A DNA stretch of 64,000 nt, from assembly GCF_000226975.2 (NCBI RefSeq), contig NZ_CP019285.1, positions 2,046,001-2,110,000 of the forward strand, in the 5' to 3' direction. Shown here piece by piece: positions 39,426 to 46,215 of this stretch (positions are counted from its first letter, which is position 1; every line of letters starts with the position of its first letter). The position numbers and the translations under genes were made by a program. The notes beneath the pieces are model-generated. The model did no database searches. It was not told the DNA's origin and was given only the letters and a program-made list of their open reading frames with translations. Source of the DNA: Halobiforma lacisalsi AJ5 (GTDB lineage: Archaea > Halobacteriota > Halobacteria > Halobacteriales > Natrialbaceae).

Positions 39426-39776
39426 AGTCGTACGACCCTCTTACTTGGTGACCGTTATAAAACGCACGTTCCGGGTTCGTCACGACTGTGCGTCGCTCGC
39501 CCGGGACGCCGATTCGATCCCGTCTCGATTCGACCCCGATAGTTGGATAACCAACAAGTTTACAGGGGCGGACCGTGTAGGAACGGCTGGCAGGGGATTG
39601 GGGGAATCAGTCGTTGCCAGATCGGTTCCGTCCACTATGTGACATCGTCCCCTGCCCGTCCCACTCGCCTGTGACTGACATCCTGCCAGTGGGACGTTTT
39701 GCGGCCGGAACGTCGGACTTTCCGACGGCAGAAGAGGATGGACAGACGTAACTTTCGTCCGCGCATCGTGGCGACC
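39426..39776. other. Divergent intergenic region between L21e and cystathionine synthase genes
   Basis: No gene is seen. Besides the L21e TATA box (39454-39462), it has a small hairpin (gttgg / ccaac) at 39542-39555 and a longer-range 8-bp inverted repeat, gcagggga at 39590-39597 against tcccctgc at 39648-39655. The promoter of the rightward gene is not obvious. Confidence 0.5.
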
Positions 39777-40955
39777 ATGAGCGACGAGCACGACAGCAGT
39801 TCCGACTATCGGATCGAGACCCGGTCGATCCACGCCGGACAGGACCCCGACGAGGAGACCGGCGCGCTGATGACGCCGATCCACGCCAACTCGACCTACC
39901 AGCAGGACGCTCCCGGCGAGCACCGCGGCTATGAGTACTCCCGGACCGGCAACCCCACGCGAACCGACCTCGAGGAGAACCTCGCCAGCCTCGAGAACGC
40001 CGAGTACGGACGCGCCTTCGCCTCGGGGATGGCCTCGATCAACACCGTCCTCAACCTGCTCGAGGCCGGCGACCACGTCGTCACCGGCAACGACGTCTAC
40101 GGCGGCACCCACCGCATCTTCACACAGGTCTACGAGGACTACGACGTCGAGTTTAGCTTCGTCGATATGACGGATTTGGAGGCGATCGAGGCGGCGTTCC
40201 AGGAGAACACGGAACTGCTGTGGCTCGAGACCCCGACGAACCCGCTCATGTCGATCGTCGACATCGCGGGCGCGGCCGAGATCGCCCACGACCACGACGC
40301 CCTCTGTGCGATCGACAACACGTTCGCGACGCCGTACCTCCAGAACCCGCTCGACCTCGGAGCTGACATCGTCTCGCACTCGCTGACCAAGTACCTCGGC
40401 GGCCACTCGGACGTCGTCGGCGGCGCCTTGCTGACGAACGACGAGGACCTCGACGAGGAGTTCGGCTTCTACCAGAACTCCGTCGGCGCGACGCCCGGCC
40501 CGTTCGAGTCGTTCCTCGTCCTCCGCGGGACGAAGACGCTGCCGGTCCGCATGGACCGACACTGCGAGAACGCCCGGCAGATCGCGGACTGGCTCCAGGA
40601 CCGGCCGGAGGTCGACCGCGTCTACTACCCCGGCCTCGAGTCCCATCCGGGCCACGAGATCGCACGCGAGCAGATGGATGACTTCGGCGGGATGCTGAGC
40701 TTCGAACTCGACGCGAGCATGGAGGAGGCGAGCGAGGTCGTCTCCTCGACGGAGGTGTTCACCCTCGCGGAGAGTCTGGGCGGCGTCGAGAGCCTGATCG
40801 AACAGCCCGCGCCGATGACCCACGCTGCGATCCCCCGCGAGGAGCGCATCGAGGCCGGCCTGACGGACGGCCTGATTCGCGTCTCGGTGGGGATCGAACA
40901 CGTCGACGACCTGATCGCCGACCTCGAGCGAGCTTTCGAGACCGGACTCGAGTAA
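39777..40955 (+). CDS. Cystathionine gamma-synthase/lyase family PLP enzyme
   Basis: A 392-residue Cys/Met-metabolism PLP enzyme. It has the family opening TRSIHAGQDPDEETGA, EYSRTGNPTR (about residues 58-67) and the PLP lysine in SHSLTKYLGGHSD (Lys about 205). GGVESLIEQPAPMTHA follows near 335-350, then LIRVSVGIEHVDDLI. It either joins cysteine to an activated homoserine or cleaves cystathionine; sequence alone does not separate these. The start at 39777 is chosen because the frame upstream is basic and not family-like. It lies beside a ubiquitin-like / sulfur-carrier cassette, which may be relevant to cysteine supply. Confidence 0.92.
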   Translation: MSDEHDSSSDYRIETRSIHAGQDPDEETGALMTPIHANSTYQQDAPGEHRGYEYSRTGNPTRTDLEENLASLENAEYGRAFASGMASINTVLNLLEAGDHVVTGNDVYGGTHRIFTQVYEDYDVEFSFVDMTDLEAIEAAFQENTELLWLETPTNPLMSIVDIAGAAEIAHDHDALCAIDNTFATPYLQNPLDLGADIVSHSLTKYLGGHSDVVGGALLTNDEDLDEEFGFYQNSVGATPGPFESFLVLRGTKTLPVRMDRHCENARQIADWLQDRPEVDRVYYPGLESHPGHEIAREQMDDFGGMLSFELDASMEEASEVVSSTEVFTLAESLGGVESLIEQPAPMTHAAIPREERIEAGLTDGLIRVSVGIEHVDDLIADLERAFETGLE

Positions 40956-41014: not shown

Positions 41015-41716
41015 ATGTCACGACAGGAGGACGACGTCGGATTGCACGCGCTCCCGATCGCGGTCGACCACGGCGGCCGCGAGCTAACCGTTACGCCCGC
41101 GCTGGTCGAAACCGAGCGCGGCCTCGTCCTGATAGACGCCGGCCCCGAGGGGAGCCTCGAGTCGCTTCGAACGCACGTCCGGAGCCTCGGCCACGAACTC
41201 GCGGACGTCTGGCTGGTCGTCGTCACCCACCACGATGCCGACCACGCGGGCGGGCTCGCGGCCCTGCTCGAGCACACCGACGCAGTCGTTGCGACCCACC
41301 GCGAGGAAGCGCCGTTCCTGACCGGCGAACGTGATCCCCTCGGGAGCGACGGCGACGGCGACGGCGACCGCTACCCCCCGGTCGAGGTCGACCTGGAACT
41401 CGCCGGCGGCGTCCGGATCCCGACGCTCGCCGGCCCGATGGAAGTCGTCGAGACGCCCGGCCACGCACCCGGGCACGTGTCGCTGTACTTCCCCGAGAGC
41501 GGGGTGTTGCTCGCCGGCGACGCGCTCGTCGCGGACGGAACGGAGACGCTCGAGGGCCCCAAACCGGAGTTCACGCCGGACATGGATCGCGCGATCGAAT
41601 CGGTCGGCGACCTCGCGGGCCTCGAGATCGACGGCGTGGTCTGTTACCACGGCGGCTACGCCGAGGCGGGAACCGAGCGACTCGAGGAGCTACACCGAGA
41701 ACTACGCGAGAAGTGA
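41015..41716 (+). CDS. MBL-fold metallo-hydrolase
   Basis: A 233-residue metallo-beta-lactamase-fold enzyme. It has the HxHxDH motif variant THHDADHAGG (about residues 70-79), the later histidine in VVETPGHAPGHVSLY (about 144-158), GDALVAD with its bridging Asp and a final histidine in VCYHGGY (about 209-215). It should bind two metal ions. The substrate could be a thioester, lactone or phosphodiester. It lies 59 bases after the cystathionine gene and converges on the ubiquitin-like gene. Confidence 0.88.
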   Translation: MSRQEDDVGLHALPIAVDHGGRELTVTPALVETERGLVLIDAGPEGSLESLRTHVRSLGHELADVWLVVVTHHDADHAGGLAALLEHTDAVVATHREEAPFLTGERDPLGSDGDGDGDRYPPVEVDLELAGGVRIPTLAGPMEVVETPGHAPGHVSLYFPESGVLLAGDALVADGTETLEGPKPEFTPDMDRAIESVGDLAGLEIDGVVCYHGGYAEAGTERLEELHRELREK

Positions 41717-41728
41717 GAACCCGGGGAC

Positions 41729-41995
41729 CTACCGCGAGCCGCCGCTGGCCGCCGGAATGACCCGGATCTGGGACCCTTCATCGACGGGCTCCTCGAGGTC
41801 CGAGACCTCGTCACCGTCGACGTAGACGTTGATGAACTCCTTGATCTCGCCGTCCTCGATCACGCTGTCGCGCAGCGACTTGCCGTGTTCTGCGGCGTGA
41901 GCGTCGAAGGCCTCGCGAAGGGTCTCCCCCTCGACTTCGACGCGCGAGGACGCGCCGCCGCCGCTCAGTACGGCTGGTACCTTGATGGTTGGCAT
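41729..41995 (-). CDS. Ubiquitin-like beta-grasp protein (SAMP/CysO/MoaD-like) with masked diglycine
   Basis: An 88-residue beta-grasp protein of the ThiS/MoaD/CysO type. It opens MPTIKVPAVLSGGG, has a VEVEGETLREAFDAHAAEHG strand-helix unit and the hallmark EFINVYVDGDEV, then GSQIRVIPAASGG. Active carriers normally end exactly at GG so that an E1 can adenylate the C-terminus. Here two more residues (Ser-Arg) follow before the stop. Its E1-like partner is divergent at 42121 and a JAMM protease follows at 42994-43452. The opening VPxxL pattern is closer to mycobacterial CysO than to Haloferax SAMP1/3, by recall. It may serve sulfur transfer, protein modification or both. Confidence 0.85.
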   Translation of the reverse strand: MPTIKVPAVLSGGGASSRVEVEGETLREAFDAHAAEHGKSLRDSVIEDGEIKEFINVYVDGDEVSDLEEPVDEGSQIRVIPAASGGSR

Positions 41996-42120
41996 ACCCG
42001 GCGGTTGGCGACACCGTCCTAAAAGGCCCCCGCCCTCGGCAAGAACGGCTCTCGTCGCGGATGGCGGCAGATGACGCCGACGGAGGGGTCCTTATTCCGC
42101 GCCGGTGCCAACGGCGGACG

Positions 42121-42978
42121 ATGAGCGACCTGGATCTCTCGCCGACGCAACTGGACCGATACTCGAGACACATCATCATGGACGAGGTCGGGCCGGAGGG
42201 ACAGAGCGACCTGCTCGACTCGCGCGTGCTGGTGATCGGCGCGGGCGGGCTCGGCTCGCCGATCATCCAGTACCTCGCGGCGGCCGGGGTCGGAACGATC
42301 GGCATCGCCGACGACGACGAGGTGGAACTCTCGAACCTCCAGCGGCAGGTCATCCACGACGACGACGACGTGGGACGCAAGAAAGTCGACAGCGCCGCGG
42401 AGTACGTCGAGACGATCAACCCCGACGTCGACGTCGAGAAACACGAACTCCGCGTCTCGCCCGACAACGTTGAGGACCTGATCGAGGGCTACGACTTCGT
42501 GATCGACGGCGCTGACAACTTCGAAACCCGCTATCTCGTCAACGACGCCTGTACCCTCGCCGGCGTCCCCTTCTCCCACGGCTCGATCTTCAAGTTCGAG
42601 GGCCAGATCACCACCTTCGCCGGCGGCAAGGACTCGCCGTGTTACCGCTGTATGTTCCCCGAAGCTCCGCCGGCGGGGATGGTCCCCAACTGCGCGACGG
42701 CTGGCGTGCTGGGGGTCCTCCCCGGCACCGTCGGCTGTATCCAGGCCACCGAGGCCGTGAAGTTCCTGCTCGGGAAAGGCGACCTCCTCGACGGCCGGAT
42801 GGTCTTCTACGACGCCCTGAACATGGAGTTCGACACCGTCGAGATCACCAAGAAAGACGACTGTCCGGTCTGTGGTGACGATCCCGCGATCGACTCGGTT
42901 CACGACGTCGAGTACACGGCCTCCTGTTCGATCGACGGGACGGCCAAGGAACCGGAGATCGAAGCCAGTGACGACTAA
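42121..42978 (+). CDS. ubaA: E1-like ubiquitin-activating/adenylyltransferase UbaA (MoeB/ThiF family)
   Basis: A 285-residue E1-like enzyme that adenylates the C-terminal glycine of ubiquitin-like proteins. It has QLDRYSRHIIMDEVGPEGQ (about residues 9-27), the nucleotide loop VIGAGGLGSP (about 37-46), NLQRQVIH, DGADNFETRYLVND (about 130-143) and the probable catalytic Cys in VPNCATAGVLG (about 187-197). Two CxxC pairs (CYRC about 173, CPVC about 247) bind zinc. In Haloferax UbaA serves protein sampylation, tRNA thiolation and molybdopterin synthesis. It is divergent from the beta-grasp gene and convergent with the JAMM gene. Confidence 0.93.
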   Translation: MSDLDLSPTQLDRYSRHIIMDEVGPEGQSDLLDSRVLVIGAGGLGSPIIQYLAAAGVGTIGIADDDEVELSNLQRQVIHDDDDVGRKKVDSAAEYVETINPDVDVEKHELRVSPDNVEDLIEGYDFVIDGADNFETRYLVNDACTLAGVPFSHGSIFKFEGQITTFAGGKDSPCYRCMFPEAPPAGMVPNCATAGVLGVLPGTVGCIQATEAVKFLLGKGDLLDGRMVFYDALNMEFDTVEITKKDDCPVCGDDPAIDSVHDVEYTASCSIDGTAKEPEIEASDD

Positions 42979-42993
42979 CGCGACTGACGACGA

Positions 42994-43452
42994 TTAACGA
43001 CAACTAACGGGGTCGTCACCGTCCCCTTCGCTACGGCTCGAGACCACGCGCACCCGCTCCCCCTCGAACCGCTCTTCGTCCTCGCGCCAGCGCCACGAAC
43101 CCACGAACGGGTAGCCGTCGAGCGCGACGATGACGTACGAGAAATCGGGCCAGGTCGCCCGCGCCGCGTCCGTCTCGCTGGGTTCGGCCGGCCCCGCCGG
43201 GTGGGAGTGGTAGAAGCCGGCGACCTCGAGGCCCGCCTCCTCGATCCGTTCGGTGATCTCGAACTGTTCCTCGGGATCGATCGCGTACCGGATCTCGGGG
43301 TTGTCGGCGACGTTTTCGGCCGGATAGGCGTCGGTGACGACGGTGTGGTCCGGGTCGTACTCGCCGGCGAGGATCCCACAGACTTCCCGTTCGTCGCCGT
43401 CGTAGGCCTGATAGACGATCTCGTCGTACGCCGACCGCGACAGTTCGATCAT
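42994..43452 (-). CDS. JAMM/MPN+ metalloprotease (desampylase / Mec+-like)
   Basis: A 152-residue zinc isopeptidase. The full JAMM signature is visible: Glu23 in REVCGILAGE, His82 and His84 in FYHSHPAGPAEPSETD, then Ser92 and Asp95 with the exact H-x-H-x7-S-x2-D spacing. Haloferax HvJAMM1 of this type removes SAMPs from proteins. Mycobacterial Mec+ cuts cysteine from CysO, and QbsD trims a pre-carrier to expose its diglycine. With an extended carrier tail nearby, all three roles are possible. It is convergent with ubaA, with 15 bases between the stops. Confidence 0.92.
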   Translation of the reverse strand: MIELSRSAYDEIVYQAYDGDEREVCGILAGEYDPDHTVVTDAYPAENVADNPEIRYAIDPEEQFEITERIEEAGLEVAGFYHSHPAGPAEPSETDAARATWPDFSYVIVALDGYPFVGSWRWREDEERFEGERVRVVSSRSEGDGDDPVSCR

Positions 43453-43709
43453 GCGCGTGGCTGGGGGTTGCAGCGTCTTAAGCTATCCACTCCGGATCGG
43501 CGATATCGGCCCGAACAGGTCGCGGCGAGGCCGATCATAGATAGGAGCCAGTGTTGCCGGGGCCTCAGAGTTCCCGCCCTCCCGGTATCGCGCTGAGGCG
43601 GCCGTATCGGTTACCGAAGCACCGTATTTCGTCCTGAGGGCCGTCATCGATCCGTGCAGAGGTTCCCGTAACGGGGGCGGTTTAGGACCGGCAGTGAGAA
43701 CGACCGGTG

Positions 43710-44876
43710 ATGACATCGACGCTGCTCGTCGCGGCGGTGGTCGGCCTCGGACTGGGTATCTTCCTCCAGAAGGGCCGGTTCTGTTTCGTCCACGCGTTTC
43801 GCGACCTGTTCGCGTTCAAGGACACCCGAGTTACCAAGGGCGTCCTCGTCGCGGTGGTATCGACGATGCTGGGCTGGAGCGTGCTCTACCAGCTCGGCTA
43901 CTACCAGGGGTTCTGGACCCCCGACTGGGGCCTGACGGGGCTTGTCGGCGGCTTCGTCTTCGGCGTCGGGATGACCTACGCCGGCGGCTGTGCGAGTGGG
44001 ACTCTCTATCGGGCCGGCCAGGGGTACCTCCACTTCTGGCTGACCCTGCTGTTCATGGGCGTCGGCTACGCGGCCTTCTCCGTCGCCTTTCCGACGCTCC
44101 AGTCGACGTACTTCGCGCCGTTGACGTTCGGCGAGGGCGTCACGCTCTTCGAGGCGTCCTCGCTTCCCGCGCCGCTCGTGGCGCTGCTGGCCTCGGCGCT
44201 GATCGGGCTCGCGTACGTCACCGTCGTCGGCCGCGAGGCCGGCGAGACCGGGACGGGACGCGAGCAGGCCGCGGAGTTCCGCCCGGTCGTCCTCGCGACG
44301 CCCGTCGTCGGAACCCGGCGACTCCTCGAGGGGACGCGCTCGTACGTTCGGGGCTTCCGCGAGATCGACGACCCGATAGCCGCCTCGAAGCAGCCGTGGG
44401 ACCCGCGGACGGCCGCGCTCGGGATCACCGCCGTCGCGGTCGTCTGGTTCTCGCAGGTCTCGATCGTCGGCGTCACCGGCCCCGAGGCACGCTGGACGGG
44501 CTACCTGCTCCAGCAGGTCGGCGTCGACGCGGGCTCCTACGAGTACTGGGGATCGATCCTGTTCGCGGGCGAGGGCGTCTCCGTTACCGTCGACATGATC
44601 ATGATCGCGATGGTCATCGTCGGCGCGGGGATCGCTGCCGCCTGGAGCGGCGACTTCTCCGTGCGGACGCCCAAGCTCCAGCGGCTCCCCAACGCCGTCG
44701 TCGGCGGCTTCCTGATGGGAGCGGGCTCCCGGCTCGCGCCCGGCTGTAACATCGGGAACATCTACTCGGGGATCGCCTCGCTGTCGATCCACTCGTTCAT
44801 CGCGGCCGTGGGGATCGTGCTTGGCGTCTACGTGATGACCCACTGGCTCTACCGCGAGGTCGGCTGCGCGATCTGA
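43710..44876 (+). CDS. YeeE/YedE-family sulfur-compound transporter
   Basis: A 388-residue membrane protein with about ten hydrophobic segments in two similar halves. Each half holds the conserved pore cysteine motif: AGGCASGTLYRAGQG (about residues 91-105) and APGCNIGNIYSG (about 347-358). A first Cys in QKGRFCFVHAFRD (about 20-32) is also typical. Family members import thiosulfate or deliver sulfur. ATG 43710 is chosen over GTG 43707. It lies one gene away from the sulfur-carrier / E1 / JAMM cassette, which may explain the grouping. Confidence 0.92.
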   Translation: MTSTLLVAAVVGLGLGIFLQKGRFCFVHAFRDLFAFKDTRVTKGVLVAVVSTMLGWSVLYQLGYYQGFWTPDWGLTGLVGGFVFGVGMTYAGGCASGTLYRAGQGYLHFWLTLLFMGVGYAAFSVAFPTLQSTYFAPLTFGEGVTLFEASSLPAPLVALLASALIGLAYVTVVGREAGETGTGREQAAEFRPVVLATPVVGTRRLLEGTRSYVRGFREIDDPIAASKQPWDPRTAALGITAVAVVWFSQVSIVGVTGPEARWTGYLLQQVGVDAGSYEYWGSILFAGEGVSVTVDMIMIAMVIVGAGIAAAWSGDFSVRTPKLQRLPNAVVGGFLMGAGSRLAPGCNIGNIYSGIASLSIHSFIAAVGIVLGVYVMTHWLYREVGCAI

Positions 44877-45327: not shown

Positions 45328-46215
45328 ATGCCAACGAATGACTCGACAGGGCGGATCGATCACGACCGCCGCTCGTTTCGCTACTACCGCAACGCCGTCG
45401 AACGTCACTGGGATCCCCATGGGATCGACCTCGAGGCCGACCGCGATGCGATTCGAGGGGTTCCGGAACCGGCGTTCGACGGCCTGCGCGAGACGCTCGC
45501 GCTGTTCGGCGCGGGCGAGGAGGCCGTCACCGAGGACCTTTCGCCGCTGGGAGTCGTCCTCGAGGACGTCGCCGATCAATTGTTCGTGACGACGCAACTC
45601 TACGAGGAGGCCAAACACGCGGACTTCTTCGACCGGTACTGGCGGACGGTGATCACGCCCGAGGAACGGCGGCGAGGCCTCGAGCCGACCGCTCCGATCG
45701 ACGAGCGGTGGTTCTCCGACCCGTACGAGGAACTGTTCGAGCGCAACGAGACGGCGATGGGCCGATTACTGGTCGAGGACACGCCGGAAAACCGCGCGCT
45801 CGCGTACTGTCATTACCACATGGCGATCGAGGGAATTCTCGCCCAGACGGGCTACTACGGCGTCCAGCGGAACTTCAGCGGCGAGTACGCGGACCTCCCG
45901 CGGCTGCCGGGGCTGGTCGAGGGGTTCTCCAGCATCCGGAGCGACGAGGGCCGACACGTCGGCTTCGGGATGTGGAAACTCGAGCGGCTCGTCCACGAGG
46001 CGGGCGTCGATCCCGCCCTGATCGAGGGGACGGTCGGCGAACTCGCGATGCTCGTTCAGGGAATCGTCGGTGAGTCGGTCGAGGAGGGTGCGACCGGCGT
46101 CGACGACGAGACTCTCGTCGGCTACGCCGCGGAGAAACACCGCGACCGGATGGCACAGATCGTCGACGACGGCGAGTTGCCAGACGTCGAGGAACTGGTT
46201 CGTCTCGAGGAGTAG
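45328..46215 (+). CDS. R2-like ligand-binding oxidase-type (R2lox) metalloprotein
   Basis: A 295-residue ferritin-fold protein of the ribonucleotide reductase R2 superfamily. The metal ligands can be read as a Glu near 64-65, Glu94-x-x-His97 (in YEEAKHADFF), Glu168 (in YHMAIEGILAQ) and Glu207-x-x-His210 (in SDEGRHVGFG). The layout, the short length and tyrosines around 160-163 fit R2lox. R2lox binds an Fe/Mn site and a fatty-acid-like ligand and is not a reductase subunit. No large ribonucleotide reductase subunit is nearby, which supports that reading. Its physiological reaction is not known. Confidence 0.78.
   Translation: MPTNDSTGRIDHDRRSFRYYRNAVERHWDPHGIDLEADRDAIRGVPEPAFDGLRETLALFGAGEEAVTEDLSPLGVVLEDVADQLFVTTQLYEEAKHADFFDRYWRTVITPEERRRGLEPTAPIDERWFSDPYEELFERNETAMGRLLVEDTPENRALAYCHYHMAIEGILAQTGYYGVQRNFSGEYADLPRLPGLVEGFSSIRSDEGRHVGFGMWKLERLVHEAGVDPALIEGTVGELAMLVQGIVGESVEEGATGVDDETLVGYAAEKHRDRMAQIVDDGELPDVEELVRLEE

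Follow-up and report, generated by a model that had tools for sequence, protein, structure and literature searches.

How can a beta-grasp sulfur carrier be activated when its diglycine, the presumed point of cleavage and activation, is not at its C terminus? The question is raised by a small cassette in Halobiforma lacisalsi AJ5, found within a stretch of 64,000 nucleotides (the window). Here, a carrier gene stands head to head with a gene for an E1-like adenylating enzyme, which is followed by a convergent gene for a JAMM metalloprotease (Table 1). The initial annotation had placed these three proteins together, and both the coordinates and the Pfam families ThiS, ThiF, and Prok-JAB bear this out. 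It had also described a carrier whose diglycine is followed by Ser-Arg, which direct reading confirms (...IRVIPAASGG-SR-stop). On sequence-based evidence throughout, we consider it likely, at roughly 70%, that these genes serve cysteine synthesis as a sulfur carrier system of the CysO type in haloarchaea, in which a short tail would cap the carrier.

Table 1. Features of the carrier cassette and its neighbors, in window positions
Feature	Position	Strand	Basis
Cystathionine gamma-synthase-type PLP enzyme, an uncertain member of the system	39774..40955	+	PRK07811, 559 bits (cut-off 513)
Metallo-beta-lactamase-fold hydrolase, probably a neighbor only	41015..41716	+	Lactamase_B, E 1.4e-26; 3 loci, own genus only
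CysO-like beta-grasp sulfur carrier, precursor form, 88 aa	41729..41995	-	ThiS (Pfam), E 1.1e-7
Carrier stop codon (TAG)	41729..41731	-	
Ser-Arg tail codons 3' of the diglycine	41732..41737 (Ser 41735..41737, Arg 41732..41734)	-	Direct reading
Gly-Gly codons, where cleavage and activation are presumed to occur	41738..41743	-	PAASGG invariant in 43/43 distinct orthologues
Dedicated E1-like adenylating enzyme, encoded divergently from the carrier	42121..42978	+	ThiF (Pfam), E 3.4e-85; UbaA model, 476 bits (cut-off 450)
JAMM metalloprotease, HvJAMM1/desampylase type	42994..43452	-	Prok-JAB (Pfam), E 2.7e-22; desamp_Halo, 145 bits (cut-off 130)
YeeE/TsuA-like sulfur (thiosulfate) transporter, predicted; likely sulfur entry	43707..44876	+	Sulf_transp, E 2.2e-54; in 17 loci, a homologue lies near the carrier

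The tail after the diglycine

As the initial annotation had proposed, the residues past the diglycine were surveyed in homologous carriers. The set comprised 43 distinct orthologues from Halobiforma, Halobellus, Halorubrum, Salinarchaeum, Haloquadratum-like genomes, and deeper lineages represented by MAGs. PAASGG is unchanged in every one, and 39 carry one to three variable residues after it; this count required PAASGG, and a looser pattern likewise revealed no other ending. A lone R is the commonest tail (28 orthologues), followed by Q (2), while SR, AR, TRA, CSP, RR, QF, QA, TGQ, and G occur once each and four orthologues have none. Such strict conservation up to the diglycine, with little beyond it, is what would be expected if everything after GG were removed. 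Judged from these sequences, then, the carrier does have a tail, and its removal is almost certain. That Ser-Arg might be a sequencing or annotation error can be set aside, since a 97%-identical orthologue from an independent assembly reads GG-AR and the other tails likewise come from independent assemblies. In the halophilic archaeon J07HX64, two sets of carrier and E1 genes adjoin each other (L054:9016-14260), and both carriers end in GG-R.

The JAMM protease and other capped diglycines

What would remove the tail? The JAMM of the cassette has an intact catalytic motif (E23, H82-x-H84, S92, and D95, as HxH-x7-SxxD), and a JAMM is adjacent to or near the carrier in 25 of 29 distinct loci. HvJAMM1-type proteases are encoded by all 35 carrier genomes versus 260 of 356 others (P = 4.5e-5 by a Fisher test that ignores kinship). 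There is mostly exactly one such copy per genome, the cassette JAMM being the only one in H. lacisalsi. As the sole HvJAMM1-type enzyme in most of these genomes, it is probably also a general desampylase, removing SAMPs from proteins.

It was expected that carriers without a tail would also be without a JAMM. This expectation failed. Of the four carriers that end exactly in GG, two belong to Haloquadratum-like loci and two to deep-branching lineages, and a JAMM is near or adjacent in these loci, adjoining the carrier in the two deep lineages; the tail is therefore dispensable for the system. Two further genomes of the window's own genus (G080 and G083, loci L256 and L255) retain the JAMM next to a rhodanese, with the same two neighbors, R2lox and PurF, while the carrier and its E1 are gone and the dedicated cysteine synthase described below is absent at the similarity used. 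Since the JAMM persists without a tail or without a carrier, trimming is not its only job. The initial annotation had proposed that the carrier needs JAMM maturation, and the invariant PAASGG with its variable tail, the intact motif, and the linkage all speak for this, as long as trimming is not taken to be the protease's sole role. A JAMM that matures the carrier would probably also free cysteine from it, a role suggested by its linkage to both carrier and cysteine synthase and one that fits by analogy with Mec+. The R2-like ligand-binding oxidase homologue of the window (45328-46215, plus strand) scores under all curated cut-offs; within the genus, its place next to the JAMM is conserved.

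Is the masked diglycine special to this carrier, as had been supposed? It is not. SAMP1 proper, with the ending FPPVSGG, bears a tail in 19 of 71 haloarchaeal genomes with an HvJAMM1-type JAMM versus 0 of 11 that lack one (P = 0.06, with only 11 SAMP1 genes from JAMM-lacking genomes read and kinship not fully corrected). Masked diglycines are thus a wider haloarchaeal feature, and the statement that SAMPs end exactly in GG holds for the known Haloferax proteins but not across haloarchaea. H. lacisalsi has a second capped diglycine of its own, in a SAMP1-family carrier ending in FPPVAGG-CDGR (L004, C1:340367-340627). In the SAMP1 loci of Halorubrum-like genomes (L263 to L352), four-residue tails ending in GR recur (SVGR, SAGR, AVGR, and TVGR).

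Might the tail, then, be neutral? A JAMM able to cut behind any GG would be there in any case, leaving the stop codon free to drift downstream; trimming would still be needed, and the tail would have no regulatory role. This concerns the tail alone, is compatible with the cysteine pathway, and deserves somewhat less than even odds. The varied length and sequence of the tails, the few tail-less orthologues, and the confinement of SAMP1 tails to JAMM-positive genomes are all in keeping with it. It accounts less well for the frequency of tails, which are found on 39/43 of these carriers but on far fewer SAMP1 proteins (19/71), or for their endings: Arg closes 31 of 39 carrier tails and 16 of 19 SAMP1 tails (7 of 13 when counted roughly by lineage) versus 12% of acidic open reading frames, although kinship is not fully corrected in either comparison. 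Single-Arg tails could have arisen when a TGA stop became an Arg codon (CGA), but such a change is unable to explain the four-residue xxGR tails of SAMP1. The excess of Arg may instead reflect a preference of the protease or selection on the capped form. A more ambitious reading, which we regard as possible but doubtful, gives one JAMM three jobs: (i) it would unmask the carrier, (ii) it would free cysteine, and (iii) it would strip SAMPs from proteins. The cap would bar the wrong E1 until the JAMM admits the carrier, and the Arg-ending tail would be under selection. Were this true, protein desampylation would be tied to sulfur assimilation.

Carrier family, dedicated E1, and sulfur genes

To which family does the carrier belong? 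A profile built from 18 orthologues was compared with solved structures; its best match is the actinobacterial CysO 4n6e (E 4.8e-11), followed by CysO of Mycobacterium tuberculosis (3dwg; E 1.3e-6) and, more weakly, Haloferax SAMP1 (E 2.5e-5). The predicted structure of the carrier (pLDDT 87, falling below 50 in the last four residues, GGSR) gives the same ranking, with CysO structures on top (4n6e, Z 14.2; 3dwg, Z 13.6; 3dwm, Z 13.3) and SAMP1 structures below them (Z 10.4 to 11.0). By profile and predicted fold, therefore, the carrier is nearest to actinobacterial CysO, not SAMP1. It also fails the NCBIfam equivalog model for SAMP1 (43.3 bits versus a cut-off of 60). The genome encodes three further ThiS-family carriers, which score 55 to 125 bits against that model, all of them closer to it than this one. 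On model score and fold ranking, membership in SAMP1 was rejected.

These scores bear on whether the carrier is mainly a SAMP-type modifier, conjugated to lysines, with the JAMM as its desampylase. Such a role would suit an E1 that scores above the UbaA cut-off and a JAMM that does so for the desampylase model, usually as the one HvJAMM1-type enzyme of its genome. It is nonetheless unlikely, given the CysO-like fold, the low SAMP1 score beside three better-matching carriers in the same genome, and the cysteine synthase, rhodanese, TusA, and YeeE genes that travel with the carrier.

The E1 is likewise distinctive. It passes the NCBIfam equivalog model for UbaA, but in a tree the cassette E1s form one clade across families (support, 100/99) and do not group with UbaA, the single near-universal haloarchaeal E1. 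The second E1 of H. lacisalsi (C1:1432367-1433089) does group with UbaA, and at least one UbaA-type E1 is present in 386 of 391 haloarchaeal genomes. A second E1 copy occurs in 31 of the 35 carrier genomes versus 6 of the 356 others (P of about 1e-35, uncorrected for kinship).

What travels with the carrier and its E1? In related loci, the neighbors are a cysteine synthase-like PLP enzyme (21 loci), a rhodanese (21), TusA (18), and a YeeE-type transporter (17); less frequent are a DsrE-like protein and a tandem rhodanese, the latter named from its sequence. A dedicated homologue of cysteine synthase is found in 30 of 35 carrier genomes versus 3 of 356 others, figures to be read in the knowledge that the Fisher tests of co-occurrence ignore kinship, that Halorubrum dominates the sample, and that absences depend on thresholds and assemblies. 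The three exceptions have the cysteine synthase with the carrier undetected. In H. lacisalsi, the dedicated enzyme lies about 72 kb from the cassette, at C1:2160204-2161220, together with TusA and a rhodanese. In one locus (L159, genome G154), its gene is broken by an in-frame TGA and continues in a second piece, with the rest of the cluster intact.

More distant homologues of the cysteine synthase occur in other families, and no PAASGG-type carrier was found near them. In five loci of another family (L132, L133, L138, L144, and L146), about 3 kb at most separates the single E1, UbaA, from such a homologue (52 to 56%), again with no PAASGG carrier near, an arrangement hinting that another carrier may serve cysteine synthesis there.

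A different destination for the sulfur would be homocysteine or methionine, made by the adjacent cystathionine gamma-synthase-type enzyme; the Wolinella HcyS-HcyD-MetY system would be the model. We find this slightly less probable than a SAMP-type modifier. In the window and its genus, the PLP enzyme lies two genes away from the carrier, but it is a neighbor in just three loci, all of that genus, and the dedicated cysteine synthase tracks the carrier across families and is kept in H. lacisalsi itself. As the main partner, the gamma-synthase was judged a weak candidate because its linkage is restricted to the genus.

Together, the separate E1 clade, the CysO-like predicted fold, and the co-occurrence with cysteine synthase, rhodanese, TusA, and YeeE favor a role in making cysteine, thereby narrowing the choice that the initial annotation had left between a thiocarboxylate and a protein modifier. 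In the CysO-type pathway that we propose, the carrier would be translated as an inactive precursor with its diglycine capped by the short tail. The neighboring JAMM would cleave after GG and expose the glycine carboxylate, and the dedicated E1 would adenylate the exposed C terminus. Sulfur, probably as thiosulfate, would be imported by the YeeE-type transporter and passed on by the rhodanese and TusA, to end as a C-terminal thiocarboxylate on the carrier. The dedicated CysM/CysK-like enzyme would join this thiocarboxylate to an activated serine, giving a carrier-cysteine adduct from which the same JAMM, acting like Mec+, would free cysteine and regenerate the GG-ended carrier.

Comparison with known systems

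Little has been described of how haloarchaea make cysteine, and a literature search found no paper on a CysO-type route in these organisms. A candidate pathway can now be named, complete in its components, with E1s that form a clade apart and genes whose distribution is clear. Capped diglycines, moreover, are common among haloarchaeal ubiquitin-like proteins, SAMP1 included. Haloferax cannot reveal the processing of precursors, since its known SAMPs end in GG, and the step is directly testable in Halorubrum or Halobiforma.

Trimming of a carrier tail by a JAMM is not a new idea, as HvJAMM1, CsJAMM, and QbsE/HcyS provide precedents. What is new is that haloarchaea have a complete cassette of the CysO type, in which the carrier is capped and the E1 belongs to a clade of its own. 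In the QbsCDE system of Pseudomonas and the HcyS-HcyD system of Wolinella, both bacterial, one or two residues follow the GG of the carrier and are removed by a JAMM before activation; the former serves thioquinolobactin synthesis and the latter homocysteine synthesis.

An archaeal precedent is CsJAMM of Caldiarchaeum, which cleaves the tailed SAMP precursors Csub_C0702 and C1603 in vitro (PMC6043591). The likeness, as described in that report, lies in an archaeal JAMM that cuts tailed SAMP precursors, and the gene numbers suggest that Csub_C0702 and C0703 are neighbors. Unlike the haloarchaeal cassette, CsJAMM is not linked to cysteine synthesis in the parts of that report consulted. In Haloferax, HvJAMM1 cleaves a linear SAMP1-MoaE fusion precisely behind the GG of SAMP1, both in vitro and in vivo, and a fusion left uncut does not function in sulfur transfer (PMC4443979). 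That system shares with the present one the JAMM subfamily, a related E1 (UbaA), and the fold class, and differs in that the present carrier falls outside SAMP1, its E1 forms a separate clade, and its genes are clustered with those for sulfur assimilation.

The proposed pathway would be of the same kind as the CysO/CysM/Mec+ cysteine pathway established in mycobacteria (PMC3227635). The mycobacterial CysO-MoeZR-CysM-Mec+ system and the haloarchaeal cassette have in common the carrier fold, a PA-x-x-GG end, E1-type activation, a cysteine synthase partner, and a JAMM. The corresponding parts are at most moderately similar, however, and two differences stand out. The E1 of M. tuberculosis has a fused rhodanese domain, whereas the haloarchaeal rhodanese and TusA are separate proteins, and its CysO ends exactly in GG, whereas the haloarchaeal carrier is tailed.
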